DNA of 40,861 bases from Acidobacteriaceae bacterium (lineage in GTDB: Bacteria > Acidobacteriota > Terriglobia > Terriglobales > Acidobacteriaceae), in contig CAJCIM010000012.1 in assembly GCA_903970395.1 (NCBI GenBank), positions 1 to 40,861 of the forward strand, written 5' to 3'. The translations under genes and the position numbers were made by a program. Below the pieces are notes generated by a model that ran no database searches, was not told the origin of the DNA, and saw only the letters and a list, made by a program, of their open reading frames with translations. Positions 5,685-40,861 of this stretch are shown piece after piece. Within the stretch, counting starts at the first letter, position 1. Every line of letters starts with the position of its first letter.

Positions 5685-7700
5685 ATGGCCGCCTACCAAG
5701 TCCTAGCCCGTAAATACCGCCCACTCAGCTTCTCGGACGTCATCGGGCAGGACCACGTCACCCGCACCCTCATCAACGCGCTCGGCCAGGGCCGCATCGC
5801 GCACGGCTACATCTTCTCCGGCCACCGCGGCATCGGCAAAACCACCATCGCCCGCATCCTCGCCTCGGCGCTCAACTGCCGCAACATCATCGGCTCGACC
5901 GAACGCCCCACGCCCGAGCCATGTAACCAGTGCGAGTCTTGCCTCGAGATTCGCCAGGGCAACGCCGTAGACGTCATCGAGATCGACGCCGCCACCAACC
6001 GCGGCATCGATGAAATCCGCGAACTCCGCGACGCGGCCCGCTATCGCCCCTCGCGCGATAAATACAAGATCTACATCCTCGACGAGGCGCACCAGATCAC
6101 TGACGCCGCCTTCAACGCCCTGCTCAAAACCCTCGAAGAGCCACCCGACCATATCGTCTTCATGATGGCCACCACGCAGCCCGAGGACATCCCGCAGACC
6201 ATCCGCTCGCGCTGCCAGCACTTCAGCTTCCATGCCGTCAAACTGGACGACATCGTCGGCCAGCTCCGCACCATCGCCACCGCCGAGCACATCCTCGCCG
6301 ACGACACGACGCTCTCGCTCCTCGCCGAAGCCGGCGACGGATCCATGCGCGACGCCCTCTCCATCATGGATCAGGCTATCGCCAGCGCACCCGTAGTCGA
6401 CGGTCAGCCCGCACTCGCCGCCGATCAGGTCCGCGAGCTCATGGGCACGGTCTCCAACGTCATCTACGAGCAGATCCTAGAGGCTGTCCACGCCAACAAC
6501 TCCGCCGACGTGCTCACCATCATCGGCCGCCTGCTCGACGCCGGCAACGGAGCGCCGCAACTGGCCCGCCAGTTCGTCCGCTACCTCCGCAACTGCGTCG
6601 TCGCAAAGATCACCGGCTTCATACCCGGCGCGGACGCCACCGGAGTTACCGCAGACCTGCTGCAGATCTCCGCTGAAGAACGCCAGCGCGCCGCCCGCTC
6701 AGCAACACTTTTTACCGAAGAAGAGCTCTCGCGCTTTCTCAGCATCATGCTCCGCACCTTTGACGAGCTCGGCTATAGACAAGAACAGCGCTTCCACTTC
6801 GAGCTCGGCCTTCTCAAGCTCGTCCATGTACAGCGCCTCGTCCCCATCGAAGAGCTCCTCTCGCAGCTCGGCGCCAAACCCACCAACACGCCGTCGACGA
6901 AGCCCTCATCCATCAGCGCTCCCCGTGAGCCTGTCGCAAACTCTCCATTCGTCACATCGTCAGCAAGAGCGACCACTACCGAATCCCCCTTCGCCAGCGA
7001 CGCCTCACGCAAAACACCTGTAGCCTCGAGTCTGGGTAACCCAGGTCTCGCTTCTGAGACCTGGGATAGAACCAGCACTACCGGCTCTCTGGCTCTCGCA
7101 CCCGAGCCCATCGCACCTGCACCAAGCACCCGCCCGCAGCTCGTCGTCCCCCCAGTCGCTGTCGCGGAACCTATCGTCATCGTCGCCGACCCCATCATCA
7201 CAGAACCCTCCATCGTCAACCCTCCCGCCGAAACTTTGTCATCTCGACCGGAGTCTGTCCCTTCTGCGGACATAGCAGAGAAACCTGCAGTTAGTTCTGC
7301 CAACACTCTCGACCTCACCGAACTCCAGCACACGCTCTCCTCTGCGCTGGCAGCCGTCAAAGGCCAAACCTCCGCCTCCGAGCAGATCGAAGACGCCACG
7401 CTCACCCTCAACGACAACACCCTAGAGATCCAGACGACCCTCTCGAAGACTATGCTTCCAGTCGTAATCAATGCGGAAGCCGAACGCATCCTCAAAACCA
7501 CGCTGCGCTCTACCACCTTCGCACACCTCACGCTGAAGCTCATCCCCGGCGCACCAGCGGTCTCCGGTAAACCCAAGTCTCCACGTGCTGCCGCCTCTGG
7601 CTCCGCCGCTGACCTCGCGCAGAAACACCCCATCGTCCAGCAGGCCATACAACTCTTCTCCGCAGAGATCAGCAACATCATCGACCTCCGCGAAAAATAG
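5685..7700 (+). CDS. dnaX: DNA polymerase III subunit gamma/tau
   Basis: 671 residues. This is the clamp-loader ATPase of the replisome: it loads the beta sliding clamp, and its tau form couples polymerases to the helicase. Visible: Walker A GHRGIGKT (residues 46-53), four zinc cysteines (65, 80, 83, 86), Walker B ILDEAH (131-136), and the SRC arginine-finger motif (175-177). Helical domains follow to about residue 390, then a long Pro/Ser/Thr/Val-rich linker and a C-terminal tau domain. The linker contains two palindromic-repeat-derived stretches (7040-7065 and 7235-7288). recR starts 37 nt downstream; the ybaB gene often found between the two is absent. The first ATG fits the family N-terminus. 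Confidence 0.97.
   Translation: MAAYQVLARKYRPLSFSDVIGQDHVTRTLINALGQGRIAHGYIFSGHRGIGKTTIARILASALNCRNIIGSTERPTPEPCNQCESCLEIRQGNAVDVIEIDAATNRGIDEIRELRDAARYRPSRDKYKIYILDEAHQITDAAFNALLKTLEEPPDHIVFMMATTQPEDIPQTIRSRCQHFSFHAVKLDDIVGQLRTIATAEHILADDTTLSLLAEAGDGSMRDALSIMDQAIASAPVVDGQPALAADQVRELMGTVSNVIYEQILEAVHANNSADVLTIIGRLLDAGNGAPQLARQFVRYLRNCVVAKITGFIPGADATGVTADLLQISAEERQRAARSATLFTEEELSRFLSIMLRTFDELGYRQEQRFHFELGLLKLVHVQRLVPIEELLSQLGAKPTNTPSTKPSSISAPREPVANSPFVTSSARATTTESPFASDASRKTPVASSLGNPGLASETWDRTSTTGSLALAPEPIAPAPSTRPQLVVPPVAVAEPIVIVADPIITEPSIVNPPAETLSSRPESVPSADIAEKPAVSSANTLDLTELQHTLSSALAAVKGQTSASEQIEDATLTLNDNTLEIQTTLSKTMLPVVINAEAERILKTTLRSTTFAHLTLKLIPGAPAVSGKPKSPRAAASGSAADLAQKHPIVQQAIQLFSAEISNIIDLREK
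7040..7065. repeat. Palindromic repeat inside dnaX (GCTTCT-loop type)
   Basis: A perfect 10-bp inverted repeat (CCCAGGTCTC with GAGACCTGGG) around a GCTTCT loop, in frame in the tau linker. The same core, GTCTCGCTTCTGA, recurs at 37724-37736. Confidence 0.75.
7235..7288. repeat. Second repeat-like stretch inside dnaX
   Basis: TTTGTCATCTCGACCGGAGT and a downstream AGAGAAACC match the layout of the intergenic repeat at 14832-14890 (GTGTCATCTCGACCGAAG, later GGAGAGACC). Here the stretch is translated as part of the disordered linker. Confidence 0.5.
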
Positions 7701-22556: not shown

Positions 22557-22859
22557 GTCTGGCGTAGGGATTAATCCACTCAGGCCGAGGTCGCATTACG
22601 AATGCGTATTACGTATCGAAAAGCGTGTTTCTACCAATACTGGCGTAGTGGAAAAGGGCTATACTTCTTGCGGCTCACCTTGTGCGCCATCTTCCTCGCG
22701 CAGATTTATCAACTAAGTCCTTACGGGTTGACGAGTTCTCTGCGAAAAATTCTCTGACTCGGCTGTGCCATCTCACTAAAGACAAGTTGGGGGTTGCTTG
22801 TCAGTCCTTGAGATTATGACACGCTATTCGAAATCGGGCCCCGACCTATGAGGGACGAT
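22557..22859. other. Intergenic region at the left edge of the accessory island
   Basis: About 300 bases without a supported gene. The C-rich bias of the + strand stops here. It contains a -10-like TATACT, but with no convincing -35 at standard spacing. I see no attachment site, tRNA remnant or terminator. Confidence 0.5.
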
Positions 22860-23681
22860 ATGACCTCAGCCCAACAACACAAACGTTTCCAGGTATCCAG
22901 GATCGTTCTGGCTACAGATCTCACCATCAAATCAGACGCCGCAACCGATTACACCAAATTTCTCGCTCGAAAATTTCATTCGGTCGTTCTGATCGTTCAC
23001 ATCATCGATAAGACGCTGCACAACGTAGTGGCGAGAGCTATAGGCCGGCCTACTACAGCGGGTTTGCGCACCGAAAGAATGAAAGACTTGTTGCAGGTCA
23101 AATCAAATATCTCGGGAGCGGGCATTCCAACCAGAGAGATATTGTATGAAGGTCATCCTGTAAGTTCAGTCCTGGTCATGCTGGCTCGGCAGCGCAAGGC
23201 AGACTTGATCGTAGTGGCTGCCAACCAGAAACTGGCGGAAGCAGAGTTGAGTACGCTGTCGGTGTTGGAAGACGTTCTACCTGCCTGCCAATGCCCGTTG
23301 ATCGTGGTGGGTATGCGGAGGTATCGCGAACGGCGATTGCCCGAACTCTCCACTGTTATGTATATCGAGGCGGGATCAGGCACCAGCGACCTTTCAGCTT
23401 CTTCCTACAGCGCAGCATTCGCAGATCAAGCGGGAGCCACGTTGACTACGCTCAAGGTCGAAATCTTGGACGCGGTCTCGGAACGCTCAGATCGGATCAA
23501 GCCTGCGAGCTACCGTGATGCGATGATTCGAGGCATCGTTGATGTTACAGAAGAACGCAACGCGGACCTCATCATCTGTAGCCTCTCTAAGAAAAAGCAC
23601 ATTGCCCAGAAGGAGCGACTCTATCTTATTAGATATCTGATCATGCTCGCGCGGTGTCCTGTGATGATCCTATGTACCTAA
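22860..23681 (+). CDS. Tandem universal stress protein (UspA-like)
   Basis: 273 residues with two Usp-like halves (about 12-145 and 155-273). The first opens SRIVLATDLTIKSDAATDY and includes GHPVSSVLVMLARQRKADLIVVAA; the second ends ADLIICSLSKKKHIAQ and MLARCPVMILC, the usual last strand. The ATP-binding GxxG-(9x)-G(S/T) motif is not recognisable in either half, so it may belong to the non-ATP-binding Usp proteins. The ATG at 22860 has GAGGG 5 nt upstream; an ATG at 22848 is the alternative. Codon use is less C-biased than the genes before 22.5 kb. Confidence 0.85.
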   Translation: MTSAQQHKRFQVSRIVLATDLTIKSDAATDYTKFLARKFHSVVLIVHIIDKTLHNVVARAIGRPTTAGLRTERMKDLLQVKSNISGAGIPTREILYEGHPVSSVLVMLARQRKADLIVVAANQKLAEAELSTLSVLEDVLPACQCPLIVVGMRRYRERRLPELSTVMYIEAGSGTSDLSASSYSAAFADQAGATLTTLKVEILDAVSERSDRIKPASYRDAMIRGIVDVTEERNADLIICSLSKKKHIAQKERLYLIRYLIMLARCPVMILCT

Positions 23682-23702
23682 GGCGCTGCGTACAAATAAA
23701 AC

Positions 23703-23722
23703 GCGGGCCCCGAAGGACCCGC
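23703..23722 (-). terminator. Intrinsic terminator with UUCG tetraloop
   Basis: On the minus strand GCGGGTCC-TTCG-GGGCCCGC forms an 8-bp stem (one G-U pair) closed by C-G on a UUCG loop, followed by GTTTTATTT. It lies 34 nt after the stop of the Ig/beta-helix gene and also faces the end of the convergent USP gene. Confidence 0.85.
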
Positions 23723-23755
23723 ATAATGATGCAGATACAGCGTATGCAGACTTAG

Positions 23756-25858
23756 CTATTCAATGGCGCCGATCGAAGGCGGCACAGGTCGAACAACTCC
23801 GTTGATATCTGTAGGAGAAGCCTTTGTGCTTGTTCCTGCGCCAAGAGCGGGCGAAGTGGATTGAAGGCTGAAATCCGTTGTTGAGTTGAAGAGTGGGTTT
23901 GAGATCACCGGCCGGGAATCGAAGCTCGGCGCAGCTCCTGCACCGAACCATAGGTTGTTCGATCCGGTGACGGCTGTGGTGCCTGACTCGATGTAGGGCT
24001 CAGTGGCGTTTGGCTGCAAGCAGATGTTGTTGTTCAGCTGTATGCCTGCGCCGGCAGTCACAATCCCAAAGCATCCGTTCTGATTCCCAGTCGTGTAGCC
24101 ACCTGCATCAACGATTGTGTTGTTGTAGAGGTACACGGTGCCGGATGTAGCTGCGGGAGGATCTGAGTTGATCGCAATGCCTGCTTCATTGGCTACGCCA
24201 TAGGGGTTCGAAGCAATCGCGACATGCGAGATGACGTTGTTGTAAGCCTCAACGACTCCCAGCGAAGGATCTACCGAAGCCAGACCGATGCCATCGCAGT
24301 ATCCGCCCGTGATCACGTTGTCGTGAACATGCAGATCAGACAAGTTGCCGCCCGAGCTCGCATGGAACATGATGCTGCGGCAGTAGCCCTTGAAGCCCTG
24401 GCCGACATTGTTCCACCCCACATCGGCATGGTTGACACCCGTTGAAAAGTAGACAGCGTGGTAGGTTTTATCGACGTTGCCGCCGGTGTTGTTGACCACG
24501 TTGCCATCGAACACCCAGGTATCTGCTGGCGTTTCTGTTTCACCTAGAACACAAGCCGTGTCGCCGATACCCGTAGGAGGTGCAGGACAGGAGAAGGTGT
24601 TGTTGATGATGCGTGCGTTGCCGGCTTCATCATCGATGGCGGAGGCCTGTCCGATGACCGAGAGATTCGCAATGGTCAGATACTTGCCCCAGCCGTGTAT
24701 TCCATTCGAAACCGATGTGCTGCCGATATTGACAGTGCCGCCAGGATAACCAACGATGGCGAGCTGCTTGGTTGGCGAGGAGCCGCCGATGTCGGTCGAC
24801 ATCACAGCGCTGTAGCCGCGTCCGTCGTCCGTGTTAACCACCACGCCTGGCTCCAGGTAGATGACCGTGTTCTGAGCAGGCGAGCTGTTGTCGTTCGATG
24901 TGACGGAGTTGAACGCTGCCCGCCATGTCTTGAACGGAGCGCTGAAAGATCCCGTGTTCGAGTCCAGGCCAGAAGGCGATACGAACACGATCGTAGTCGG
25001 AGTCACAGTGAAAGGCACACCATTCGAGGCCAGGCCATTCACAGTAACTTGGATATTGCCGGTAGTCGCAGCGCTTCCAAGCTGTGTCACGATGACGCTA
25101 TCGCTCCATGAGCAGAGGCTGCAGTTGGTTACCAGGTTTCCGCCCAGTTGGACGGTGCTGCTGCCCTGGCTGGCTCCAAAATGATCTCCGAAGATGCGGA
25201 CGTAAACACCATTGCCGTTATCGCCGCCTGTTCCGGAGCCGACATTGAGGTCTGTGTAGTGGATATGCGGTGCACCCGCCGTCGAACTTCCTGTCGAACT
25301 TGACACAGCGTTGACTGTAATCGCCGCAACGGCAGAGGTCGTACCGCCTGCTCCAGTAGCTGTAAGGGTCGCCTGCGAGCTTGCGGTCGGGACCTCAGTC
25401 ATCGAGCCGGAGGTTGCAACTGCAGCGCCATTGAGGGTCGCCGAAGTTGCGTTTGTCGTAGTCCAGGTCAGCGTAACGCTCTGACCTGCGCTCACCGTAC
25501 TGGGAGAAGCACTCAGCGTTGCGGTTGGTGCGGCCGTTGTCTTTGAGTTGACTGTAATCGCCGCGACGGCAGAGGTCGAACCACCTGCACCCGTTGCCGT
25601 AAGAGTTACCTTCGAGGTTGCGGTGGGAACCTCAGTCATCGAGCCGGAGGTTGCAACTGCAGCGCCATTGAGGGTCGCCGAAGTTGCGTTTGTCGTAGTC
25701 CAGGTCAGCGTAACGCTCTGACCTGCGCTCACCGTACTGGGAGAAGCACTCAGCGTTGCGGTTGGTTTTCCTTGGTGGTGATTTCTATGAGACGATTGGG
25801 CCGGTGAGACTTGCATACCGATCGCGAGAACGGCAAGAAATACAGTATTTTTTTTCAA
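23756..25858 (-). CDS. Secreted Ig-repeat / parallel beta-helix protein
   Basis: 700 residues from a TTG start with GGAG 5 nt upstream; the following KKNTVFLAVLAIGMQVSPAQ is a signal peptide. Two nearly identical 79-residue Ig-like repeats follow (PTATLSASPSTVSAGQSVTL ... AVAAITVN), then an IPT/TIG-like stretch (VYVRIFGDHFGASQGSSTVQ), then a right-handed parallel beta-helix region (from about residue 310) with repeated short NNTF/NNV/NNTI turns, as in pectate-lyase-like and DUF1565-type proteins. It is probably a surface or extracellular carbohydrate-binding or carbohydrate-cleaving protein. No catalytic residues can be named. A UUCG terminator follows the gene. Confidence 0.85.
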   Translation of the reverse strand: MKKNTVFLAVLAIGMQVSPAQSSHRNHHQGKPTATLSASPSTVSAGQSVTLTWTTTNATSATLNGAAVATSGSMTEVPTATSKVTLTATGAGGSTSAVAAITVNSKTTAAPTATLSASPSTVSAGQSVTLTWTTTNATSATLNGAAVATSGSMTEVPTASSQATLTATGAGGTTSAVAAITVNAVSSSTGSSTAGAPHIHYTDLNVGSGTGGDNGNGVYVRIFGDHFGASQGSSTVQLGGNLVTNCSLCSWSDSVIVTQLGSAATTGNIQVTVNGLASNGVPFTVTPTTIVFVSPSGLDSNTGSFSAPFKTWRAAFNSVTSNDNSSPAQNTVIYLEPGVVVNTDDGRGYSAVMSTDIGGSSPTKQLAIVGYPGGTVNIGSTSVSNGIHGWGKYLTIANLSVIGQASAIDDEAGNARIINNTFSCPAPPTGIGDTACVLGETETPADTWVFDGNVVNNTGGNVDKTYHAVYFSTGVNHADVGWNNVGQGFKGYCRSIMFHASSGGNLSDLHVHDNVITGGYCDGIGLASVDPSLGVVEAYNNVISHVAIASNPYGVANEAGIAINSDPPAATSGTVYLYNNTIVDAGGYTTGNQNGCFGIVTAGAGIQLNNNICLQPNATEPYIESGTTAVTGSNNLWFGAGAAPSFDSRPVISNPLFNSTTDFSLQSTSPALGAGTSTKASPTDINGVVRPVPPSIGAIE
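25392..25529. repeat. Direct repeat within the Ig-domain coding region, copy 1
   Basis: 138 bp, identical by eye to 25629-25766 at a period of 237 bp (79 codons). It encodes most of one Ig-like unit; flanking parts of the unit have diverged at synonymous and a few non-synonymous sites. Confidence 0.85.
25629..25766. repeat. Direct repeat within the Ig-domain coding region, copy 2
   Basis: Partner of 25392-25529; in-register copies of this kind can expand or contract by recombination without breaking the frame. Confidence 0.85.
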
Positions 25859-26112
25859 GGGAGCTCCGGAATCTCGACCTTCAGGCGCGGGGAGTCGGCC
25901 AATCCCCGGTTGGAGAATTGGACGCGCACACGCTGTCAGGCGCACGACCGCGCGGCACTGAAGCCGAGGATGCGCTTGAAGTAGAGATTGTGAGTGGGGA
26001 GGTTGCGCTTAGCTGCGGGGAAGATTCCAGACCTAAGCTCTCATTGCACGTGGTGAATAGTTCTCCCACGCCTTTGGGGGCTGTTTTGACCCTATCGTAA
26101 GGCGGTGGAGTG

Positions 26113-26126
26113 TGCAAACTTTTGCA
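26113..26126. promoter_or_regulatory. Small palindrome TGCAAA-CT-TTTGCA
   Basis: A perfect 6-bp inverted repeat with a 2-bp spacer, 8 bp from the CRP-like site. It could bind a dimeric regulator; the regulator is not identifiable. Confidence 0.35.
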
Positions 26127-26134
26127 TACTCTAT

Positions 26135-26150
26135 TGTGATTAAAATCACA
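26135..26150. promoter_or_regulatory. CRP/FNR-type binding site
   Basis: TGTGATTAAAATCACA is a perfect match to the E. coli CRP core TGTGA-N6-TCACA, and both arms are complementary to the sixth base. It lies 277 bp upstream of the Ig/beta-helix gene start, read on the minus strand. Whether this organism's CRP-family protein uses this site is inference. Confidence 0.45.
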
Positions 26151-26529
26151 GACAGCTCAAAACAGTATTCGTAAGTGTATGAAAAAAAGCGATGAGTCTT
26201 GGCGTAATCGATTCACGCTATCAACATCAATTTTGGCCGCATACGTGCCAACCTCTCGACTCCGCAGAACGCCAGAGGAGTATTTCCGAGTCGGCTTATG
26301 GGCGCTCTCTGTTAGGCCATAGCCGCGCCAAGGAGACGATCAGCTCTGCGTCGGGCGACACTCTCGTCATCGGATCACACATCCCTCTGTGGTCTCCTCA
26401 TGGCGTTCATCGCGTATGGCCGAATATTCCTCAAGCCAATCTTGAACGGCGCCCTGCATCAAACTGCCCTTTGCAAACATTGGGGCCGAGAAGTAAAGAT
26501 GCGAAGTTTGCACTGGAACATGATGCGAA

Positions 26530-27390
26530 TCAGTTCTCCGTAGGCTTCGTGATGTGGTCGATTACAAGATTTGGCACAGGCTCGTGTACCCCTTCGAGTT
26601 TGAGCCCAAGCTGCTCCTGCACCGCGGTGAAGATCGACGGCCAACTGTCGGGATCGTGCGCGGACCACTCCCGGCCAAACTGAAGCGTGTAATTGTAGGT
26701 GCCGGTGAGACCGGTCTTGTCAACGACAGGCGCTTCTACCATCGAACTCAGGGCGCCAGTAATGGCGCGCACCGGGGAATTCGATCCGACAAACTCGAGG
26801 CCATGCTGCGATCCATGAGCCTGGACGTTGGCGGGAGGCGGCGGCGGGGGTGCCTCTCCATTCGCGGGAGGCGGCGGCGCGGGTACAGCCTGCATCTTCA
26901 CGCCCCCTTTGGCCACAACCAGGTTGTAGATGGCGCTATTGCGAGTTTCGAGATGCGTCTTCAGGCCCAGGCGTTCAGTCAACAGCACGCGAATCGCGTT
27001 TCGCTTTTCCAGCCGGACCTCGTTGTCGGTGAGCTTGGCGAGCCACGCATCGGTGGCTTCGTCCGAACGGGCCTGAATGTCGTAGAACGTGTTCGTGGCC
27101 CAATCAGGCGCACCGACAACCGGGGCATCAAAGCCATAAGCTATCTGGAGAAGCGCTTTGATAGGCAGGTTCGTGGCTTCGAAACGGCTGGAGTGCGGCG
27201 GACTGGAGACCGACACGTGGAAGTTGGCGTCCGGCGGCGGTGCAAGGCGTATGGTGGCAACGTCAAAGGTGAGCTTGGGCGTATAGCCGGGTTCGTCCAC
27301 GATAGGGGCCTGCGCGCGCGCGGAGAGACCAGACACTAAGGCGAGAACGGCCGCAAGCAGAATAATTTGTTGAGGAACGATACGGAGCAT
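26530..27390 (-). CDS. TIGR03435-family secreted protein
   Basis: 286 residues. Signal peptide: LRIVPQQIILLAAVLALVSG then LSARAQA. Diagnostic family pattern: FDVATIRLAPP, FEATNLPIKALLQIAYGF, PDWATNTFYDIQA, RNAIRVLLTERLGLKTHLETRN, a Pro-rich insert (PAPPPPANGEAPPPPPPAN), PVVDKTGLTGTYNYTLQF, and a C-terminal VQEQLGLKLE. The family is highly expanded in soil acidobacteria and has no known function. AAGGAG lies 10 nt before the ATG. It stands alone, flanked by long intergenic regions. Confidence 0.92.
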   Translation of the reverse strand: MLRIVPQQIILLAAVLALVSGLSARAQAPIVDEPGYTPKLTFDVATIRLAPPPDANFHVSVSSPPHSSRFEATNLPIKALLQIAYGFDAPVVGAPDWATNTFYDIQARSDEATDAWLAKLTDNEVRLEKRNAIRVLLTERLGLKTHLETRNSAIYNLVVAKGGVKMQAVPAPPPPANGEAPPPPPPANVQAHGSQHGLEFVGSNSPVRAITGALSSMVEAPVVDKTGLTGTYNYTLQFGREWSAHDPDSWPSIFTAVQEQLGLKLEGVHEPVPNLVIDHITKPTEN

Positions 27391-27809
27391 GGGCGTTGAA
27401 CTCCTTGCGAAGATAATACGGCTGAATGAGCCGCCCGCTTCTAAACAAATAGATCAAACGATACTACCCGCTTCTCTCCCACAAAGCCTTCCCGTTGTTG
27501 CCCTCTCCTATACTTCCACGCCTACCCAACCGAAGCGCGTTTTCAGGACTGATAGATGCAGATCGACTTCGAAACGCGCTTTGGCCTGTTGGCAAAAGCT
27601 GAGTATGCCATTCGTTCTGCGCTCGCAGTTTTTCCAGAGTTTCTACGTTTATATGAAGGGATGACCTGAGCATGTGGACCTCTCCGTGGCCCCCGGCGAT
27701 CCGGAAGCCTTGTCACCAGAGCACCTCCTCGGCTGCATGCAAGTCGTTGGCTGAGCGCGAGACGCAAGCGTGACGCCGAGGAAATTATGGAAATGGACTG
27801 TATGAGACT
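27391..27809. other. Intergenic region without a supported gene
   Basis: About 420 bases. A 37-codon open frame at 27556-27669 (starting MQIDFETRFG, AGGA 7 nt upstream) is possible but unsupported. No repeats or RNA features were recognised. Confidence 0.4.
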
Positions 27810-29270
27810 TCAAACCATTTGGTGGGCATCCGGGTTGAACTCTCCGGGCGTCGGCTCGGGATTATTCTGGCCTCGGCGAGTTGAGAGCATACCAGCGATA
27901 GTGTCGGTATATTGCTTTACGGTAGAACCCAGGTCATAGTCTTTATTGTTAAGATTCATCACGCCGGAGCCCATACTGACTGCTGTTCCCGCGACCTGCG
28001 CAATGCTCGGCGCATTCCCGGTAACACCCGCCAGTGACGCCACGGTACCACCAAACTTCAAAGTACTGCCGACAACCTGCCCTAGGCGCACCATCTGCTC
28101 TGGAGTAAGCGCCTTCCCCGCCGAGACAGCCTCATAGGCCTGCGTCAATGCATTGGCTCCTTCTGAAAGAGCCCAGGTTACGGAAGACGCCTTATTGGCC
28201 CCCGCGCTTCCGGTGGCACCCCCGATGACCCCAGTGACTCCGGAAGTTGTGTTTAAAACCCCTTTCATTAGATCGATCCCGGCGGATAAGAGCTGCTTCT
28301 GCTGTTGAGGACTGGAGTCTGAACTTAAGAGATTGCTGAATTCGACTCCCGCAGTTCCGGCTTGCCAAAGACCGCCCACTCCAAACAAGCTCTCACCAGC
28401 TATTCCAGTCTTGGTGCTGCCGGCTAAAGTCCCCGCTTCAGAAAGAACATTACTGACTTCACCCAGGGTCTTTCCGCTGAGCAGGTTGAAACTAGCTGCT
28501 CCCGAACGTCCACCTTCTTCCGTCTCAGGGAGTTCTTCAACCCGCATAGGTATTCGGCGCAGAGGTTCCAGATGTGTCGGTACGCGGCGCAGAGGCTCGA
28601 GCCGCCCGGAAGCCAGGGAAGAAGAGATTTGGGACGAGCCTGGCTTCAGCGCTCCCGAATTTTGCCCCCCTATTTGCGACGCGTTTTGCGAAACAGGCTG
28701 TCGATGGGTCGGTGACTCTTGAAGAGTAGAGCCAGACTGGCTCTTGTTCTCTCCGGCGAGCTCCGAAGGGAAGGCTGGCTGGCTTAAGGGGGTCGCGGTT
28801 CCTGTACCTGGATTTACTGCCGGCTTCGAAGCAAATGGAAGAGGACGCAGGTTTCCACCCGGATTCAAATTACCCGCCGAAGCCAAAGATGAACTTCCGA
28901 AATGATGCGACTGCGCCTTACTCATTGGAGGATATATGTGCATGCGCTGAAGATAGGCTCCTCCAGAATCCTGAGCGTTTTGTTGTACCGGGCCTGAAGA
29001 GAGAGGGATGGCCTGTTCCGCCATCTCTCCTGATGAACCTGTAACTTCCAGAGAACCATCCGAGGAGGTGACGGCCGCTACGGCATGGGCAACCTCTGCA
29101 TTGGAAGGTTGTTCAGAATGGACAGGAGACAACTGCTGAGACGCGGTCTGGCTTACAGGCGCTCGGGATTGGGTCGAGTCTCCTTGTGCTGCCTGTTGAT
29201 CTACTGGCAAATCCAGATCTGCATCCGAGTTTTTAAACTCGTTTCCGCTTAAACTATTCAATGACGTCAT
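27810..29270 (-). CDS. Unrecognised Ser/Gln/Gly-rich 486-residue protein
   Basis: Not a family I recognise. Residues 1-250 are disordered in character, rich in Ser, Gln, Pro and Asn, with a duplicated motif LEPLRRVPTH / LEPLRRIPMR around residues 225-245. Residues ~265-460 are Gly/Ala/Ser/Val-rich helices with weak hydrophobic stretches (GVTGVIGGATGSAGANKAS, GGTVASLAGVTGNAPSIAQV). There is no signal peptide. A disordered N-terminus plus a Gly/Ala helical part resembles some secreted effector or translocator proteins, but no secretion genes are nearby, so that is speculation. The upstream Shine-Dalgarno sequence is weak. It is solitary within the compositional island. Confidence 0.6.
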   Translation of the reverse strand: MTSLNSLSGNEFKNSDADLDLPVDQQAAQGDSTQSRAPVSQTASQQLSPVHSEQPSNAEVAHAVAAVTSSDGSLEVTGSSGEMAEQAIPLSSGPVQQNAQDSGGAYLQRMHIYPPMSKAQSHHFGSSSLASAGNLNPGGNLRPLPFASKPAVNPGTGTATPLSQPAFPSELAGENKSQSGSTLQESPTHRQPVSQNASQIGGQNSGALKPGSSQISSSLASGRLEPLRRVPTHLEPLRRIPMRVEELPETEEGGRSGAASFNLLSGKTLGEVSNVLSEAGTLAGSTKTGIAGESLFGVGGLWQAGTAGVEFSNLLSSDSSPQQQKQLLSAGIDLMKGVLNTTSGVTGVIGGATGSAGANKASSVTWALSEGANALTQAYEAVSAGKALTPEQMVRLGQVVGSTLKFGGTVASLAGVTGNAPSIAQVAGTAVSMGSGVMNLNNKDYDLGSTVKQYTDTIAGMLSTRRGQNNPEPTPGEFNPDAHQMV

Positions 29271-29557
29271 AGATATCTATGCCTTTTTGTCTCTCATACA
29301 GCAGACGAACTTCAGATAAACCTCAGAACTAATCTGGCACAGAGGTCATAAAAATGGCATAAAAGTCTGGCGAAGACTAATTCCAGGGGACCTTCGCGCT
29401 ATGCGTTCTCGGGCCCATGGACGCGAGTGGTCACTAAACAACTAGCGGCTGAAACGCCGCGCCGCTAACGCAGAAGATGGAACTTTGCTTCGGGAAGGTT
29501 TAGATTCGCATAACTCATTTGATTGAGCTAGTAAACCATCTATGACAATACAAAATT
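29271..29557. other. Intergenic region between unknown gene and bioB remnant
   Basis: 287 bases, AT-richer than the surroundings. A TAGCGGC/GCCGCTA hairpin with an 11-nt loop (29443-29467) is present without a T-run. Nothing else recognised. Confidence 0.4.
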
Positions 29558-30530
29558 ATGTTTGAAAGTTCTCTGCTTGTACCCGAACCTCTGATGGAGG
29601 TATTCGTGAATCCGCTTCTTGTACGCGCACTCGAGGTCTATCACCTTCCGCTCTTTGACTTGATCGATCAGGCACATCAGGTGCATCGGCAATGGCATAA
29701 TCCCGCCGACGTTCAACGCTGTGTGCTGCTTTCCATCAAGACGGGCGGCTGTCCAGAGGACTGCGGCTATTGCTCGCAATCAGCTCATCACGAAGCGAAT
29801 GTGCCGCGCCAGCTTCTATTGACGCTGGAGGAAGTCCGGACTGCGACACGCCATGCGAAAGAACATGGAGCAAGCCGTCTCTGCATGGGAGCTGCCTGGA
29901 GATGCGCTCCCAACGGTGAGCCCTTCGAACGAGTGCTCAATATGGTTCGGGAGATCAAGTCATTCGGCCTGGAAGCATGTGCCACCCTGGGAATGCTGGA
30001 TCAGGATCAGGCCAACCGATAGAAAGATGCAGGCCTCGACGCGTACAACCACAACCTGGATACAAGCCGCGAATTCTATGGACAGGTCATTACCACGTGG
30101 ACATTCGACGATCGCCTAAGCACTATAGAAGCCGTGCGCAAAGCTGGGATCACAGTCTGCTGCGGCGGCATTCTCAGACTGGGAGAAAGCGAAATCGATC
30201 GCTGCCGGCTTCTAGCTGAGCTCGCCTCGATGCAGCCGCAACCGGAATCTGTTCCGATCAATCTTTTAGTTCCAATTGTAAGGAACGCCGCTCGGATCTG
30301 CCAAGCCCGTAAAGAGCACAGACTTGATACTGGTCATTGCCGTAGCGCGCGTACTCATGCCGCAGTCACGAGTACGCCTGTCCGCAGGCCGGCTTTCACT
30401 CAATCATGAAGCGCAGTTGCTCGCCTTCTTTGCGGAAGCGAACTCGATCTTTATCGGCGACAAGCTCCTGACCACCCCGAACGTTGCCGAGGATGACGAT
30501 CAGCGCCTCCTGGCTGAGGTCGGCGCCTGA
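29558..30530 (+). pseudogene. bioB: Biotin synthase pseudogene
   Basis: Biotin synthase is a radical-SAM enzyme that inserts sulfur into dethiobiotin. The catalytic core is still readable: radical-SAM cluster [86 protein letters not shown]. Two lesions break it: an in-frame TAG at 30020-30022 (between QANR and KDAGLD, where a Leu is typical) and a one-base insertion near 30273, so that GTPL and everything after is in another frame. Motif conservation suggests recent loss. Another route to biotin, or a second bioB, is expected elsewhere. No other bio genes adjoin it. Confidence 0.9.
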
Positions 30531-30648
30531 TGCAGTCATCAGGTATTGCCTAATCGCCGATGCGCTCATCGCGGTCCGGGCTCGCACACAGATGTCGGCT
30601 TCTCATCACGAATCAAGCAGACCGGTAGAGATAGACTTTCGCTACTTC

Positions 30649-35279: not shown

Positions 35280-36227
35280 TCACAACCCCTTGCGCGCTCG
35301 AAACTCCCGCACCACATCGCCCACATCGCGATGCTGGCTTTCCACCGCCAGGTTCATCGCCCGCATATCATCGGCACTCACCTTGCCAGCCAACCTCTGC
35401 ATCGCCACACCAATCTGCGGCCACCGCTGCAACGACTCCTCCCGCACCAGCGGTACAGCCTCATACGGTGGAAAGTAGTGCCGATCATCCTCCAGCGCCA
35501 CAAAGTCCAGCGCCTTGATCGCCCCATCCGTCGAGTTCCCCGCGACAATGTCCACCTGCTTTGCCGCCAACGACCGATACAGCAACCCTAGCTCCATCGT
35601 CCGCGGCTCACCCGCAAACCGCAGCCCATACGCCGCACTCAACCCACGCAGTCCATCTGGCCGCTCCGCAAACTCATACCCAATACCCAATCGGAACTCT
35701 GGGTGCTCCACAGCCTGCCCTGAGCTCGTCGATCGGTCTCGCTTTTGAGACGTGAGTTTTGTCAGCTTCACTACATCACCAATCGTCTTCAGCCCAAACC
35801 GCCGCGCATCCTCACCGCGTACCACCATCGCAAACGTATCCTCGAACCCCAACCCCGGCCCCACACGCACATGGTAACGCTGCTCATACAACCGCGACAC
35901 CGTCGCATCCACCCGCGCCGCATCGCGGTCAAGCGGCTGCTTCAGAATCGCCGTCAACGCCGTCCCTGTGTACTCCACATACCCATCAATCCTGTTCGAT
36001 ACCAACGCCTGCTGACACAGATAACTCCCCGCCAGCCAGAACCGCCTCTCCACCGGTCCACCACCGCTAGCCTCAATCTCCTGCGCCAGCAACTCCCCCA
36101 GCACCACCTGTTCCGTAAAATCCTTGGCCCCAATCACCACATGCGAAGACCGCGGCGGCGCACACGCTGTCACCGCGACAAGAACCCCAAGCACGAGGAT
36201 TCTCAGTTGGCGTTGAAGACGTCCCAT
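35280..36227 (-). CDS. Quaternary-amine ABC transporter substrate-binding lipoprotein (OpuC/OsmF-like)
   Basis: 315 residues. Lipobox VTACAPP anchors it outside the inner membrane. The OpuAC-type fold is evident: VIGAKDFTEQVVLGELLAQEIE, RIDGYVEYTGTALTAIL, GLGFEDTFAMVVR, FAERPDGLRGLSAAYGL, VDIVAGNSTDGAIKALDFV. It binds glycine betaine, choline or similar compatible solutes. An insertion of about 17 residues (LTSQKRDRSTSSGQAVEHPE) sits between TIGDVVK and FRLGIGYEF and is encoded by palindromic repeat sequence at 35713-35755. The ATG has GGAAGG just upstream and overlaps the end of the DUF1444 gene by 25 nt. Confidence 0.93.
   Translation of the reverse strand: MGRLQRQLRILVLGVLVAVTACAPPRSSHVVIGAKDFTEQVVLGELLAQEIEASGGGPVERRFWLAGSYLCQQALVSNRIDGYVEYTGTALTAILKQPLDRDAARVDATVSRLYEQRYHVRVGPGLGFEDTFAMVVRGEDARRFGLKTIGDVVKLTKLTSQKRDRSTSSGQAVEHPEFRLGIGYEFAERPDGLRGLSAAYGLRFAGEPRTMELGLLYRSLAAKQVDIVAGNSTDGAIKALDFVALEDDRHYFPPYEAVPLVREESLQRWPQIGVAMQRLAGKVSADDMRAMNLAVESQHRDVGDVVREFRARKGL
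35713..35755. repeat. Palindromic repeat inserted in the binding-protein gene
   Basis: Contains CCTGCCCTGAGCTCGTCGAT (a relative of the widespread CCTGAGCTTGTCGAAGG repeat) next to GGTCTCGCTTTTGAGACG, a 5-bp hairpin whose core resembles the dnaX repeat. It is in frame and translated. Confidence 0.7.
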
Positions 36228-37069
36228 TGGCCTTCCTTACGAACAAGTAAAGTCCCCGAAATTAAATAACTCCCTGAGGTTAATATCTCCTCTGAATGTT
36301 TTCGAATAGCAGCCAAGCCCTCCGTCGACTCAGCTCCGGTGAAAAAGATCACATCGCGTGCCGGAGCGACCACCACTAAATCGCCATCAACACTTCTCGC
36401 GAGATCATTCCACAACCCATCGAACAGAAGCAGACTTGCCGTGTAATCCCCTCCCGCAGTTAGCAAATACCACGGCCCATCTCCGTGTTGTTCAGCAGGC
36501 GGCATTACTTTTCGCAAATTCTCTTTGGCTAATTCCTTGATTGCATCTTTCGCCACTCCCGCAGCCGCCACATCGCTTCGTTTTAGACTACGCATTCGTT
36601 CTGGCAAGTCTTCCGCATACACCACCCACAGATCGCCACAGAGGTGCTCGACACATGGCTCATGCTCTGACTTAAACATGGCCATGTATTGAGAGTCTTT
36701 GATCATGGCAACGATTCGTTCTGGAACAACGGGATCAGAGGGTTCATTCAGGCTCACGGCCAAGCCCAGATAGCGTTCCAGCATCATCTGCCGGTTCTCG
36801 GCATCTCGTGAATATTGAAGCCATGCATTGTCCATGTAGGTCGTAGACTCTTTGCCCTGCGGGCTTACGGCTCTAACAACAGACTCCCCGGTCATTTCCA
36901 ATTGATGATTGGGCATCCGCTCTTGTAAGAGTTTGAAGTACAAAAGAAGGAACTCATCGCGGCTGCAGTTCCTCGTAAGTAACCGATCCATCGTTGAAGG
37001 CTCATGAGCTTGCGCCAAAGGAACCCTCGCAGCTTCGCCTATTTTCTTTCCAAAAGGCCAGAGCTTCAT
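36203..37069 (-). CDS. DUF1444-like protein inside the ABC transporter operon
   Basis: 288 residues, cytosolic. The sequence (LLTRNCSRDEFLLLYFKLLQERMP, YMDNAWLQYSRDAENRQMMLERYLG, LWVVYAEDLPERMRSLKRSD, LLTAGGDYTASLLLFDGLWNDLA) resembles the DUF1444 family, of unknown function. Its ATG overlaps the permease stop as ATGA, and its 3' end overlaps the start of the binding-protein gene by 25 nt, so it is a genuine operon member, not a chance neighbour. Less C-biased codons than the flanking transporter genes suggest a different origin. The family assignment is from memory of the pattern. Confidence 0.75.
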   Translation of the reverse strand: MKLWPFGKKIGEAARVPLAQAHEPSTMDRLLTRNCSRDEFLLLYFKLLQERMPNHQLEMTGESVVRAVSPQGKESTTYMDNAWLQYSRDAENRQMMLERYLGLAVSLNEPSDPVVPERIVAMIKDSQYMAMFKSEHEPCVEHLCGDLWVVYAEDLPERMRSLKRSDVAAAGVAKDAIKELAKENLRKVMPPAEQHGDGPWYLLTAGGDYTASLLLFDGLWNDLARSVDGDLVVVAPARDVIFFTGAESTEGLAAIRKHSEEILTSGSYLISGTLLVRKEGQWDVFNAN

Positions 37070-37695
37070 CTCCTCACCACCATCCTTTTCTCCGCCAACC
37101 CCAACACTCCATCCGCACAAAGCGCCAACAGCGCCGCCGGCACCGCTCCGGCCAATACCAGCCCGTTATCAACACTCGCCACTCCACGAAAGATCAGTTC
37201 ACCCAATCCACCCGCACCAATCGCCGCCGCAATCGTCGCTACCCCGACACACGTCACTGTAGCCGTCCGCAATCCGGCGAGAATCACACTCGCAGCCATC
37301 GGCAGCTCCACCTTCGTTAGACGTTGCCAGCTCGTCATCCCCAGAGCATTCGCGACATCCACCAGCGCCGCATCCACACTCCTGATCCCCGCATACGTAT
37401 TCCGCAGGATCGGCAACAGCGCATACCCTGTCAGCGCCACAATCGCCAGCCGAGCGGCTCTGTCGCCCAGAAACGGCACCGGCAGCAGTAGCCCAAACAG
37501 CGCCAGGCTTGGAATCGTCTGCAGCACATTCGCCACACCCAGCAACGGTCGCGCCCATCGCTCATGCCGAGTCAGCCACACCCCCAACGGCAGCGCAATC
37601 AACACCGCAAACAGCATCGCGTTCGCCGTCAGCCACACATGCTCAAACGTCAGCCGGGCAATCTGCGCCCCATACCGCTGCAGAAACTGCCTCAT
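37066..37695 (-). CDS. Quaternary-amine ABC transporter permease (OpuB/OpuC type)
   Basis: 209 residues with about six membrane spans. The EAA-like loop ALGMTSWQRLTKVELPMAASVILAGLRTA, which contacts the ATPase, is clear, and the N-terminal HVWLTANAMLFAVLIALPLGVWLT is characteristic of the betaine/choline permeases. Only one permease gene is present, so it probably works as a homodimer, whereas many relatives have two. The start ATG overlaps the ATPase stop (ATGA), and its own stop overlaps the DUF1444 start (ATGA). Confidence 0.94.
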   Translation of the reverse strand: MRQFLQRYGAQIARLTFEHVWLTANAMLFAVLIALPLGVWLTRHERWARPLLGVANVLQTIPSLALFGLLLPVPFLGDRAARLAIVALTGYALLPILRNTYAGIRSVDAALVDVANALGMTSWQRLTKVELPMAASVILAGLRTATVTCVGVATIAAAIGAGGLGELIFRGVASVDNGLVLAGAVPAALLALCADGVLGLAEKRMVVRR

Positions 37696-38507
37696 GACGC
37701 GCCATCCGTTCTGGATGCCCCATGTCTCGCTTCTGAAATATGGGTGGGAATCACCTCAACGCGATGTGTCGCCTCAATATAAGCCCTCACCGTCTCATTC
37801 TCCGACGCCCGCACCTCACTCGCAGCCATCTCCGCTACCACACGCCCCGCCTCCAGCAGCACCACACGATCAGCCAGGTACAGCGCCTCCTCAAGATCAT
37901 GCGTCACGAGGATTGTCGTCGTCCCCACCCGTCGCAGCAACTCCCGCAGCATCGTCTGCATCTCTACACGTGTCAGAGGATCGAGCGCCCCAAACGGCTC
38001 ATCCATCAGCAGCACCTCAGGCTCACTAGCCAGCGCACGAGCCAGCCCCACCCGCTGCCGTTGTCCGCCGCTCAGTTGCCACGGATACCGCCCCATCAGA
38101 TCGCTCGGCAGCCCCACGAGCTCCAGCATCTCCGCAACTTTCGCCACAATCTCAGCTTTGGATCTCCCCGCCAGCTCCAGCGCCATCCCCACATTGCGCT
38201 CCACCGTCATCTGTGGAAATAGCCCTGTCTCCTGGATCACATACCCGATCCCCCGCCGCAACGCGATCACGTCCACCGCGCTTACATCGCGCCTACCCAC
38301 CAGTACGCGCCCACTCGTCGGCCTCACCAGGGCGTTCACCGTGCGCAGCAGTGTCGTCTTACCACTACCGCTGCGTCCCAGCAGCGCCGTCGTAGTCCCA
38401 GCCTCAACCTTGAACGAAATATCCGTTAAAAGCCGACGACCGCCCTCGCCTCTCGGCGAACCGGTCTCGAAGCTCACCTGCGCGAACTCGACACCTTGGG
38501 CGGCCAT
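37692..38507 (-). CDS. Quaternary-amine ABC transporter ATP-binding protein
   Basis: 271 residues. Walker A GRSGSGKTT, Q-loop QETGLFPQMTV, signature LSGGQRQR, Walker B VLLMDEPFGALD and H-loop VTHDLEEAL are all intact. There is no C-terminal CBS pair, unlike OpuAA/ProV. The last ~15 residues (HISEARHGASRTDGAS) include sequence from a palindromic repeat (37719-37744). GGAG lies 4 nt before the ATG. It begins 22 nt after the P-loop kinase-like gene and overlaps the permease gene, so all are probably co-transcribed. Confidence 0.96.
   Translation of the reverse strand: MAAQGVEFAQVSFETGSPRGEGGRRLLTDISFKVEAGTTTALLGRSGSGKTTLLRTVNALVRPTSGRVLVGRRDVSAVDVIALRRGIGYVIQETGLFPQMTVERNVGMALELAGRSKAEIVAKVAEMLELVGLPSDLMGRYPWQLSGGQRQRVGLARALASEPEVLLMDEPFGALDPLTRVEMQTMLRELLRRVGTTTILVTHDLEEALYLADRVVLLEAGRVVAEMAASEVRASENETVRAYIEATHRVEVIPTHISEARHGASRTDGAS
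37719..37744. repeat. Palindromic repeat at the end of the ABC ATPase gene
   Basis: An imperfect 10-bp inverted repeat (CCCATGTCTC with GAAATATGGG) with the same GCTTCT loop as the dnaX repeat at 7040-7065. It is translated as part of the ATPase C-terminus. Confidence 0.65.
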
Positions 38508-38529
38508 CTGTCTCCATCAGAACTGGCTT

Positions 38530-39330
38530 CTAACCTTCTACGGCCTCGGGCTGTGTCTCACCAGTCGCTTCCGGCTCACCCGGTGTCGCTGCACCCTTCA
38601 CCCGAACCACGGTGATCTTGTCGAAACCCTCTTTGAACGTCGGCGGCCTCAGCCTCTCCGACATCTTGTGCATCACCTCGTCGGTCACCTGACGATCCCG
38701 CTTCGAGTTTCGCTCCAGGCACACGGCCAGCGGCACATCGAAAAACACCGCCTGCACCTCGTACCCAAAACTCTTCGCCATCTTGATCCACTGCCGCCGC
38801 TCGTGCGGACTCAGATTCGTGGCATCCACATAGTTCCACGGCATCTTGGCGATCAGACGTGCCCGCAGAAGGCTGCGCAGCGTGCTGAATACCAGTCCCT
38901 GGTAGCGCTGCTCGGTAATATCGTCGAACAGAATATTCCGCAGCATATCGCTAGAAAGCGGCTGCACCCCCCGGCGCTTGTACCAGGTTGTCTTGCCCGA
39001 ACCCGGCAGCCCAATCGTCAGCACCACATAACCGCGCGGCGACTTCGCCGAAACAGCCAGCGGCTCTGCCGGCGGCGTCGCAAGCGACTCCGGCTGCGTC
39101 TCGTGTACCACCTGCGGCTGAGGCGGCGTAACGGGCACCTCTGCCTCGACGGCTGGTGCCTCTACCGGTATCTCCGGCTGGGCCGCCGCTATCGGCTCCG
39201 GGTAGCTGGGCCTAAGCGGCGCCGGCTGGTTTGCAGGAATCTCCTGCCCAATCTTGCCCGTGGACTCCGATTCATTCGGTCCACGCTTTGAACGTCTTCT
39301 CATGAGTGTGCCGCGCAACCAATCGCGCAT
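38530..39330 (-). CDS. P-loop kinase-like protein with Pro-rich N-terminal region
   Basis: 266 residues if the ATG at 39330 is used; ATGs at 39303 or 39378 are possible and no start has a convincing Shine-Dalgarno sequence. Residues ~1-95 are basic, then Pro/Ala/Glu-rich and probably disordered. From residue 100 there is a polynucleotide-kinase/zeta-toxin-like P-loop domain: VVLTIGLPGSGKTTWYKRRG, SSDMLRNILFDD, YVDATNLSPHERRQWIKMAKSFGYEVQAVFF and a lid-like CLERNSKRDRQV. It probably phosphorylates a small molecule, nucleic acid or protein; the substrate is unknown. It is the first gene of the osmoprotectant operon and divergent from gap. Confidence 0.82.
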   Translation of the reverse strand: MRDWLRGTLMRRRSKRGPNESESTGKIGQEIPANQPAPLRPSYPEPIAAAQPEIPVEAPAVEAEVPVTPPQPQVVHETQPESLATPPAEPLAVSAKSPRGYVVLTIGLPGSGKTTWYKRRGVQPLSSDMLRNILFDDITEQRYQGLVFSTLRSLLRARLIAKMPWNYVDATNLSPHERRQWIKMAKSFGYEVQAVFFDVPLAVCLERNSKRDRQVTDEVMHKMSERLRPPTFKEGFDKITVVRVKGAATPGEPEATGETQPEAVEG

Positions 39331-39463
39331 ATAACGGTGTTGTAACACACCCGTCCCTGTGCCGCCAAAGTTGTGCATACTGGCTGCCACCTCCCTCCTA
39401 TCGCAACTCGTCTCTTCTGCTCCATTTGGTATCCTTGATTGGATTAAGGAGAATCACCACAAC

Positions 39464-40489
39464 ATGGCAGTTAAGGTAGGCATCAACGGCTTCGGCCGCA
39501 TTGGACGCAACGTCTTCCGCACCGCTTTGGGCAACCCCGACATCGAATTCGTAGCCGTCAACGACCTCACTACCCCCGCTACCCTCGCCCACCTCCTCAA
39601 GTACGACTCCATCCTCGGCAACCTCAAGAACGAGATCTCCGCCACCGAAGATTCCATTATCGTCGACGGCAAGGCCATCAAGGTCTTCGCCCAGCGCGAC
39701 CCAGCCCAGCTCGACTGGGCCTCCGTCGGCGCCGAGATCGTCGTCGAGTCCACCGGCTTCTTCACCGATGCCACCAAGGCCAAAGCGCACCTCGGTGGAG
39801 CCCTCAGCGATGGGAAAACGACAGTCAAGAAAATCATCATCTCCGCCCCGGCCTCCAACGAGGACATCACCCTTGTCCTCGGCGTCAATGACGACAAGTA
39901 CGATGCGGCCAAGCACAATGTGATTTCGAATGCGAGCTGCACTACGAATTGCCTGGCTCCGGTGGTGAAGGTGCTGCACGATACGTTTGGGATTGCGTCG
40001 GGCATTATGACGACGATCCACAGCTATACGAACGACCAGGTGATTCTGGATACTCCGCACAAGGATTTGCGGCGCGCGCGGGCGGCGGCGCTGAGCATGA
40101 TTCCGAGCTCGACGGGTGCGGCCAAGGCGCTGCGGTTGGTGATTCCAGAGATGGACGGGAAGCTGGATGGTTTTTCTATGCGCGTGCCGACTCCGAATGT
40201 GTCGGTTGTCGACTTGACCTTTGTTAGCGAGAAGCCGATTGATGTGAAGAGCGTGAATGCGGCGCTGAAGGCAGCGAGTGAGGGGCCGCTGAAGGGGATT
40301 CTTGGGTATACCGAGGAAGAGCTGGTGTCGACTGACTTCCGCGGGAATCCGCTGTCGAGCATTGTCGATAGCAAGCTGACCAAGGTGATTGGGAATACCG
40401 GCAAGGTGATTAGCTGGTACGACAATGAGTGGGGCTATTCTAGCCGGGTTAAGGATTTGATTTTGTTCTTAGTGAAGAAAGGGCTGTAA
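39464..40489 (+). CDS. gap: Glyceraldehyde-3-phosphate dehydrogenase
   Basis: 341 residues. It oxidises glyceraldehyde-3-phosphate with NAD to 1,3-bisphosphoglycerate. NAD fold: VKVGINGFGRIGRNVFR. The catalytic Cys159 is in SNASCTTNCLAP and the active-site His in IHSYTNDQ; the C-terminus is WYDNEWGYSSRV. AAGGAG precedes the ATG at 12 nt, and the conserved MAVKVGINGFGR fixes the start. Codon use changes sharply near codon 145: before it nearly every codon ends in C, after it mostly in G or T. No frame disruption accompanies the change, so the enzyme should be functional. Confidence 0.97.
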   Translation: MAVKVGINGFGRIGRNVFRTALGNPDIEFVAVNDLTTPATLAHLLKYDSILGNLKNEISATEDSIIVDGKAIKVFAQRDPAQLDWASVGAEIVVESTGFFTDATKAKAHLGGALSDGKTTVKKIIISAPASNEDITLVLGVNDDKYDAAKHNVISNASCTTNCLAPVVKVLHDTFGIASGIMTTIHSYTNDQVILDTPHKDLRRARAAALSMIPSSTGAAKALRLVIPEMDGKLDGFSMRVPTPNVSVVDLTFVSEKPIDVKSVNAALKAASEGPLKGILGYTEEELVSTDFRGNPLSSIVDSKLTKVIGNTGKVISWYDNEWGYSSRVKDLILFLVKKGL

Positions 40490-40674
40490 GCAGGAGTTTC
40501 ATTTCACTTAGGAGAATCTCGATGAAAGCTTCCTTTGGTTACTTCGATTCAAATCTTGGCGCGGCGGAGCTATCGCTGCGCCAACGGTGTTTTCGGGTGT
40601 GACCTTGTGGCGCTGGCGATTTACTCGGTCATACTTCCGCTGTATTACGTTCTACGCAAAACGGAAGAACCAAG
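40490..40674. other. Intergenic region after gap
   Basis: 185 bases. A 26-codon frame at 40522-40602 (MKASFGYFDSN) has AGGAG 7 nt upstream, but its peptide resembles nothing I know. No terminator hairpin was found after gap. Confidence 0.35.
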
Positions 40675-40861
40675 CTAGATGGCGTCGACGTATTTGAAGG
40701 GGCGGAGGCCGGCGGACTTCCAGAAGTAGGCCAGGATGATGATGCTGGCTACGGCGGCGTAGGCGCACCAGAGGGAGGTGAAAGCGTAGCGTTTTACCGT
40801 CATGACCAGGAGCAGAAGCGCGAGGTTGACAGTGCCGAAAATGATCATGTCCTTGATGCGG
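40675..40861 (-). CDS. Membrane protein, C-terminal part only (5' end outside window)
   Basis: The last ~61 codons of a gene entering from the right edge, ending TAG at 40675-40677. Two hydrophobic spans are visible (MIIFGTVNLALLLLVMTV and LWCAYAAVASIIILAYFW), and the tail ends KSAGLRPFKYVDAI. Codons end mostly in C on this minus-strand gene, the reverse of minus-strand genes to the left, consistent with the skew switch inside gap. The family cannot be named. Confidence 0.7.
   Translation of the reverse strand, partial: RIKDMIIFGTVNLALLLLVMTVKRYAFTSLWCAYAAVASIIILAYFWKSAGLRPFKYVDAI

Follow-up and report, generated by a model that had tools for sequence, protein, structure and literature searches.

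Mosaic genes that arise by homologous recombination between species consist of two parts whose nearest relatives differ and which meet in frame at homologous positions. The gap gene described here shares this two-part ancestry and the in-frame homologous join, but differs from natural mosaics in that its native flank persists elsewhere in the same assembly. The other system with which it compares is the chimeric contig of mixed-sample draft assemblies. As in such contigs, codon composition and nearest relative change at one point in a conserved gene near a contig end, the native continuation is on other contigs and a second ortholog is present in the assembly; the difference is that the join in this case keeps the reading frame and the gene looks intact. 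SkewIT (PMC7717575) flags misassembly by strand skew on whole chromosomes, whereas the signal at this locus is at the level of codons in a single gene, and the sampled complete genome of the relative G007 has mosaic skew in any case.

The window, i.e. the whole stretch of DNA that was analysed (40,861 bases), is the entire contig C12, and the switch lies 0.97 kb from the contig end. The features around it are as follows.

35280 to 38507, minus strand: genes of ABC transporters, identified by eye from the sequence, upstream of gap; native.
38530 to 39390, minus strand: AAA_33 kinase-like gene; native.
39464 to 39880, plus strand: 5' part of gap, with C-ending codons; native.
39797 to 39817, plus strand: seven-codon insertion in gap, from an alignment with 30 gap copies of relatives.
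39881 to 39921, plus strand: junction interval (strongest bracket 39,881–39,888, outer limit 39,921).
39889 to 40489, plus strand: 3' part of gap, with G-ending codons; judged foreign.
40675 to 40861, minus strand: 3' end of a gene for a DUF6629 membrane protein, truncated where the contig stops, with the family named from the copy on contig C165; judged foreign.

The gap reading frame is open across 341 codons and its product is a full GAPDH with the Gp_dh_N and Gp_dh_C domains. Four-fold-degenerate sites ending in G number 4/67 in codons 1–145 and 70/84 afterwards. The single best change point is codon 148 (39,905), with a log-likelihood gain of 51.6 that was matched by 0/500 shuffles. Sites that separate C-type from G-type relatives (nine and seven, respectively, picked by us from the 27 genomes) confine the junction to 39,880 | 39,889; the outer limit moves to 39,922 should the T at 39,889 be a private (native) change. 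The active-site Cys is codon 159 (39,938), which places the junction ∼50–57 bases ahead of the active-site codon. Base counts on the plus strand are 29 C and 7 G in 39541–39600 and 27 G and 16 C in 40081–40140, an exact match to those given in an earlier note on this DNA. That note also described an abrupt change near codon 145 of an intact gap, just ahead of the active-site Cys, and a plus strand that is C-rich to the left of the switch for genes of either strand; the change point and open frame, the position of the Cys codon and the four genes that were checked bear out each of these observations.

In the orientation of gap the skew is −0.270 to the left of the switch and +0.227 in the last 0.97 kb of the window. 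A change from negative to positive skew on the plus strand, as seen here, is by the usual convention origin-like and not terminus-like. Searching Rfam across 38,000–40,861 gave no match at the gathering score. Separately, the native part of gap contains an in-frame 21-base insertion (39,797–39,817, codons 112–118) that is found in none of the 30 aligned copies of relatives.

The switch is exceptional both in the genus and in its own genome. Among 1,372 gene calls from the genus (∼1.7 Mb, a base total taken from a first scan of a nearly identical set), the window gap has the strongest within-gene switch, with a gain of 48.0 (computed with an automatic longer start) compared with 21.6 for the next. 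A coding-score trim was applied to these calls, which include the window and count two 6 kb stretches of G007 twice; several of the other switches sit close to gene ends. Within the same genome, the window gap is again the strongest of 486 gene calls in 42 stretches (617 kb), with the next at 13.7. The 30 gap copies of relatives comprise 28 from 27 genomes of the same genus, all of other species, and two from other genera. Their largest half-to-half difference is 0.18, compared with 0.41 in the window, and the same mosaic gap occurs in 0/30 of these copies, all of which are from other species.

Seven of the relatives have a G-type gap (G019, G020, G001, G014, G013, G021 and G005); G007, G027 and G016 are among the C-type copies, and others are intermediate. 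The gap of G021 has a smaller switch of a different kind (2/12 sites ending in G up to codon 35 and 115/132 later; gain of 13.4, 0/500 shuffles), and weaker signs of a change point are present in G020, G019 and G013; the test in relatives is valid only for loci stored on the strand of gap itself. Some G-type gap genes open with 20–35 C-type codons, most clearly that of G021 (L014/L123; also L004, L006 and L013), which makes the contrast between the window and its relatives less clean.

The first scan, of 1,208 ORFs, had returned several strong within-gene switches in G007. Five of the six inspected beside the window gap read as ORFs extended into non-coding-looking DNA, and the scan was therefore repeated with the coding-score trim. 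The remaining case, dnaX of G001, reads as a real switch. In the dnaX genes of two G-type genomes, G014 (L341) and G001 (L350/L369), the last 43–58 codons change from C-type to G-type (0.13 to 0.80 over 15 sites in G014 and 0.21 to 0.86 over 22 sites in G001), and in both genomes dnaX and gap retain the same relative strand. This tail switch is absent from the other 22 full-length dnaX reads. The dnaX gene of the window is at 5691–7697.

Among named sequences, the nearest matches to gap come from Acidobacteriota, headed by an uncultured Terriglobus. The genome itself was placed using dnaA, since rpoB was not found in it. Its DnaA shares 99% identity with the G007 protein and is grouped with G007 (SH-aLRT of 84) and G015 (99) in a tree of 21 rows, consisting of 20 of the 27 relatives and the genome's own copy; the long terminal branch of G009 in this tree is probably a wrongly read row. 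The gap genes of these two relatives are low in G-ending four-fold sites in both halves, G007 strongly (3/73 and 7/99) and G015 more mildly (16/58 and 25/90). Codons 1–143 of the window gap have G007 as the nearest relative by DNA (91.2%, compared with 76.2% for G019) and G015 by protein (97.1%). In the tree of the left half from DNA at all codon positions, a clade of the window with G007 is not rejected (AU p = 0.48) and a group uniting the window and the seven G-type genomes is (p = 0.009), but with codon positions 1 and 2 the clade with G007 is mildly rejected (p = 0.046). The genes to the left agree with this placement. A homolog of the AAA_33 kinase is present in 28/28 genus genomes and adjoins gap on the same contig in all except G004, and the ABC transporter genes at 35280, 37066 and 37692 are matched in G007 and G015 with the order largely kept (the gene at 36203 is unmatched). 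The best reading is that bases 1 to ∼39,888 belong to this genome, with gap lying in a C-rich stretch.

The right side of the junction has other affinities at the DNA level. The 3' part of gap is nearest to G019 (89.0%, compared with 73.1% for G007), and the tree of the 3' half contains a fully supported set of 14 rows in which the window is joined by the seven G-type genomes and by six others of intermediate composition. A clade of the window with G007 is rejected when all codon positions are used (AU p = 6 × 10⁻⁵⁰). Codon composition contributes to this placement; the trees from codon positions 1 and 2 come to no decision (p = 0.24–0.32), and S/W recoding of third positions is given little weight, as the C-to-T change is itself strand-biased. 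The protein of the right half has the highest identity to G007 (95%), and a clade uniting it with the seven G-type genomes is mildly rejected in the protein test (p = 0.036). It shares R224, E229, S238 and M239 with G007, G002 and G022, each of these residues also being present in some other relatives, while S255 is common only to G007 and G015. The earlier note had called for separate trees of the two halves: DNA at all positions places the halves differently, but positions 1 and 2 and the protein do not decide the clade of the donor. Since the right-half protein carries residues of the genome's own clade and does not clearly match the sampled G-type clade, the donor would, judging from sequence, be an unsampled lineage and none of the sampled genomes; it may be a relative nearer to the clade of this genome.

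Beyond gap, the DUF6629 piece at the end of the window is 82% identical to that of G019 over 61 amino-acid residues, and 65.5% identical over 58 to the copy on contig C165 of the same assembly. The gene downstream of gap in the window is also the gene found within 1 kb after gap in eight relatives. The lack of a G007-type insertion after gap was considered as a sign in its own right and dropped, as the insertions of G007 and G015 differ from each other.

A search with the contig end located the second DUF6629 gene of this genome on C165, a contig of 9,233 bases of which 6,696 were read. This gene is 83% identical in nucleotides to that of G007 and lies ∼530 bases past a TonB receptor gene, as in G007. 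The TonB receptor gene is in turn 81% identical in nucleotides to, and colinear with, the region of G007 from +771 to +4097 after gap, such that the two genes on C165 have the order, orientation and spacing seen downstream of the G007 gap. The first 86 bases of C165 encode a tail with 68% identity over 25 amino acids to the G015 gene directly after gap, where the matching tail is 693–767 bases past the gap stop; this match is short and is not seen at the DNA level. Near its left end, C165 carries a transposase-like gene (L339, 154–1133) in two frames, IS630-like by eye, on the side of the TonB receptor gene where the native gap is expected; this gene is a possible cause of the contig break.

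The next landmark of the locus is pgk, found on the strand and contig of gap and downstream of it in 21/27 relatives, and on another contig in six. The pgk of this genome is on contig C211 and is C-type (27/172), with 88.1% nucleotide and 96.4% amino-acid identity to that of G007; in this comparison the rows of G018 (52.9%) and G012 (31.3%) look shifted, and G013 is outside it. In the orientation of gap the skew of C165 is −0.146 over the 6,696 bases (near zero across the TonB receptor, then −0.20 to −0.37 over the final 2 kb of the portion read) and that of the pgk region of C211 is −0.208; nowhere are the stretches read from these two contigs G-rich. Codon composition separates the two DUF6629 copies in the same way, with coding-strand four-fold sites ending in G at 91/101 in the C165 copy and 101/116 in G007, compared with 5/28 in the window copy and 10/113 in G019. 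A native 3' half of gap was not found, either by a search with the G007 gap DNA (best 40 of 78 candidates) or by protein (6/6 candidates). Because the native continuation on C165 and C211 is C-rich or near zero in skew, this genome's chromosome most likely does not turn G-rich at gap.

Strand skew in the genus was sampled in G007, from 20 stretches of 6 kb, a 400 kb region and the region around gap. The sampled chromosome (L160–L179 and L230–L249) is a mosaic of blocks of about −0.28 and about +0.28 with near-zero islands, and there are several sign changes within 400 kb, not two clean replichores. Across the 27 relatives of the same genus, the order and strand of gap, the kinase gene and pgk are constant wherever a contig is shared, and the skew of the locus is opposite between clades. 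The window contains an island of its own at 22600–30600 (skew of +0.023, with a lower GC of 0.551) inside a block with a skew of about −0.25; it has the look of acquired DNA to which the strand skew does not extend. One relative, G025 (L127, L128), has two gap genes, one of them without a kinase neighbour in the stretch read, and this second gap may be a paralog or contamination (4%).

We hold it to be probable, with good confidence, that the last 0.97 kb of C12 is congener DNA wrongly joined in assembly, giving a chimeric contig end. The assembly is a draft of 214 contigs (94.7% complete, 3.7% contamination) that appears to derive from a mixed sample or a metagenome, and we infer that the join arose in assembly and not in the cell. 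In such a process the native 3' half of gap would have been left unassembled, and the assembler probably extended the contig through a short conserved run common to both gap sequences into a congener whose gap and DUF6629 locus has the opposite skew; the DNA from ∼39,889 to 40,861 would come from this congener, with the contig ending 973 bases past the join. The frame of gap survives because the join is at homologous positions of orthologous genes. By DNA the two sides differ in nearest relative, with the protein signal partly contrary, and the true continuation of the left side is elsewhere in the assembly, as the downstream block on C165 and C211. It is the presence of this native continuation that favours a contig join over a change in the chromosome. 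The shared run at the join would measure eight bases between strongly diagnostic sites, or as many as ∼41 should the T at 39,889 be native, which is short for an assembler k-mer. The eight-base bracket would lengthen if the native gap had AAT at codon 142, a codon that accounts for 16/165 of the Asn codons in C-type genes of the window. The earlier suggestion that the right side had been replaced by DNA of opposite skew stands in so far as the right side looks foreign, but the evidence points to a joined contig and not to an altered chromosome.

The alternative that takes the sequence at face value is a real mosaic gap, in which recombination with a congener (for example through DNA uptake) replaced the 3' half and at least 0.4 kb downstream and ended in a conserved part of the gene. 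The join is in frame and at homologous positions, the diagnostic sites that bracket it lie very close together, and the right-half protein carries residues of the own clade, as expected of a donor close to this genome. All of this fits such an event, as does the fact that the searches of the assembly gave no other 3' half of gap. However, C165 and C211 still carry the native block from downstream, which means that the foreign piece would have to be an insertion or a short adjacent tract; moreover, the switch is close to the contig end, and no equally strong reversal occurs in the other 1,371 genus gene calls or in the other 485 of this genome. We therefore regard a real mosaic as unlikely, though still worth weighing. 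A native 3' half with its synonymous sites rewritten in place by reversed mutation pressure would likewise account for the own-clade residues, but this would require a C-to-G change at about three quarters of the four-fold sites, against a change of 9% in the left half after the divergence from G007, and the neighbouring DUF6629 gene is present twice in the assembly, in a divergent form. The probability of such rewriting is close to nil.

The earlier note had offered two further readings. In one, two inverted copies of gap recombined, leaving both of them chimeric and the intervening DNA inverted, and the second gap of G025 gives this some precedent in the genus. Yet when the assembly was searched with the gap DNA (best 40 of 51 candidates), with the protein (6/6) and with the G007 gap DNA (best 40 of 78), neither an inverted second gap nor a reciprocal chimera emerged: apart from two DNA matches of ∼30 bases, one gap was found in the 94.7% complete assembly. 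In addition, C12 carries both flanks of the same ancestral gap locus, i.e. the upstream kinase gene and the downstream gene, and the native flank found elsewhere is not G-rich, which together make such a recombination highly improbable. The other reading placed a replication terminus within gap. A change of skew at a single point would suit a replication landmark, although the direction in the window is that of an origin. Against either an origin or a terminus, the 59 kb around gap in the complete relative G007 show no change of sign, with skew that is negative or close to zero, the dnaA of G007 is 1.6 Mb from gap, that of this genome is on another contig, and the right flank of native DNA is either C-rich or close to zero in skew. 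A landmark of replication within gap is accordingly very doubtful.

Returning to the chimeric contig end as the preferred explanation, the switch in gap is most likely not a real feature of the chromosome that needs explanation, and the gap sequence of the window is unsafe as a marker. Were the mosaic allele true instead, an intact enzyme gene would be written in two opposite codon dialects, and in this genus the limits of recombination tracts would be readable from codon-level strand skew with a precision of tens of bases. In a genus with such strong strand skew, a chimeric contig end can mimic an intact gene with a dramatic biological switch, and codon-level skew reveals such a chimera when the rest of the assembly is also searched for the native flank.
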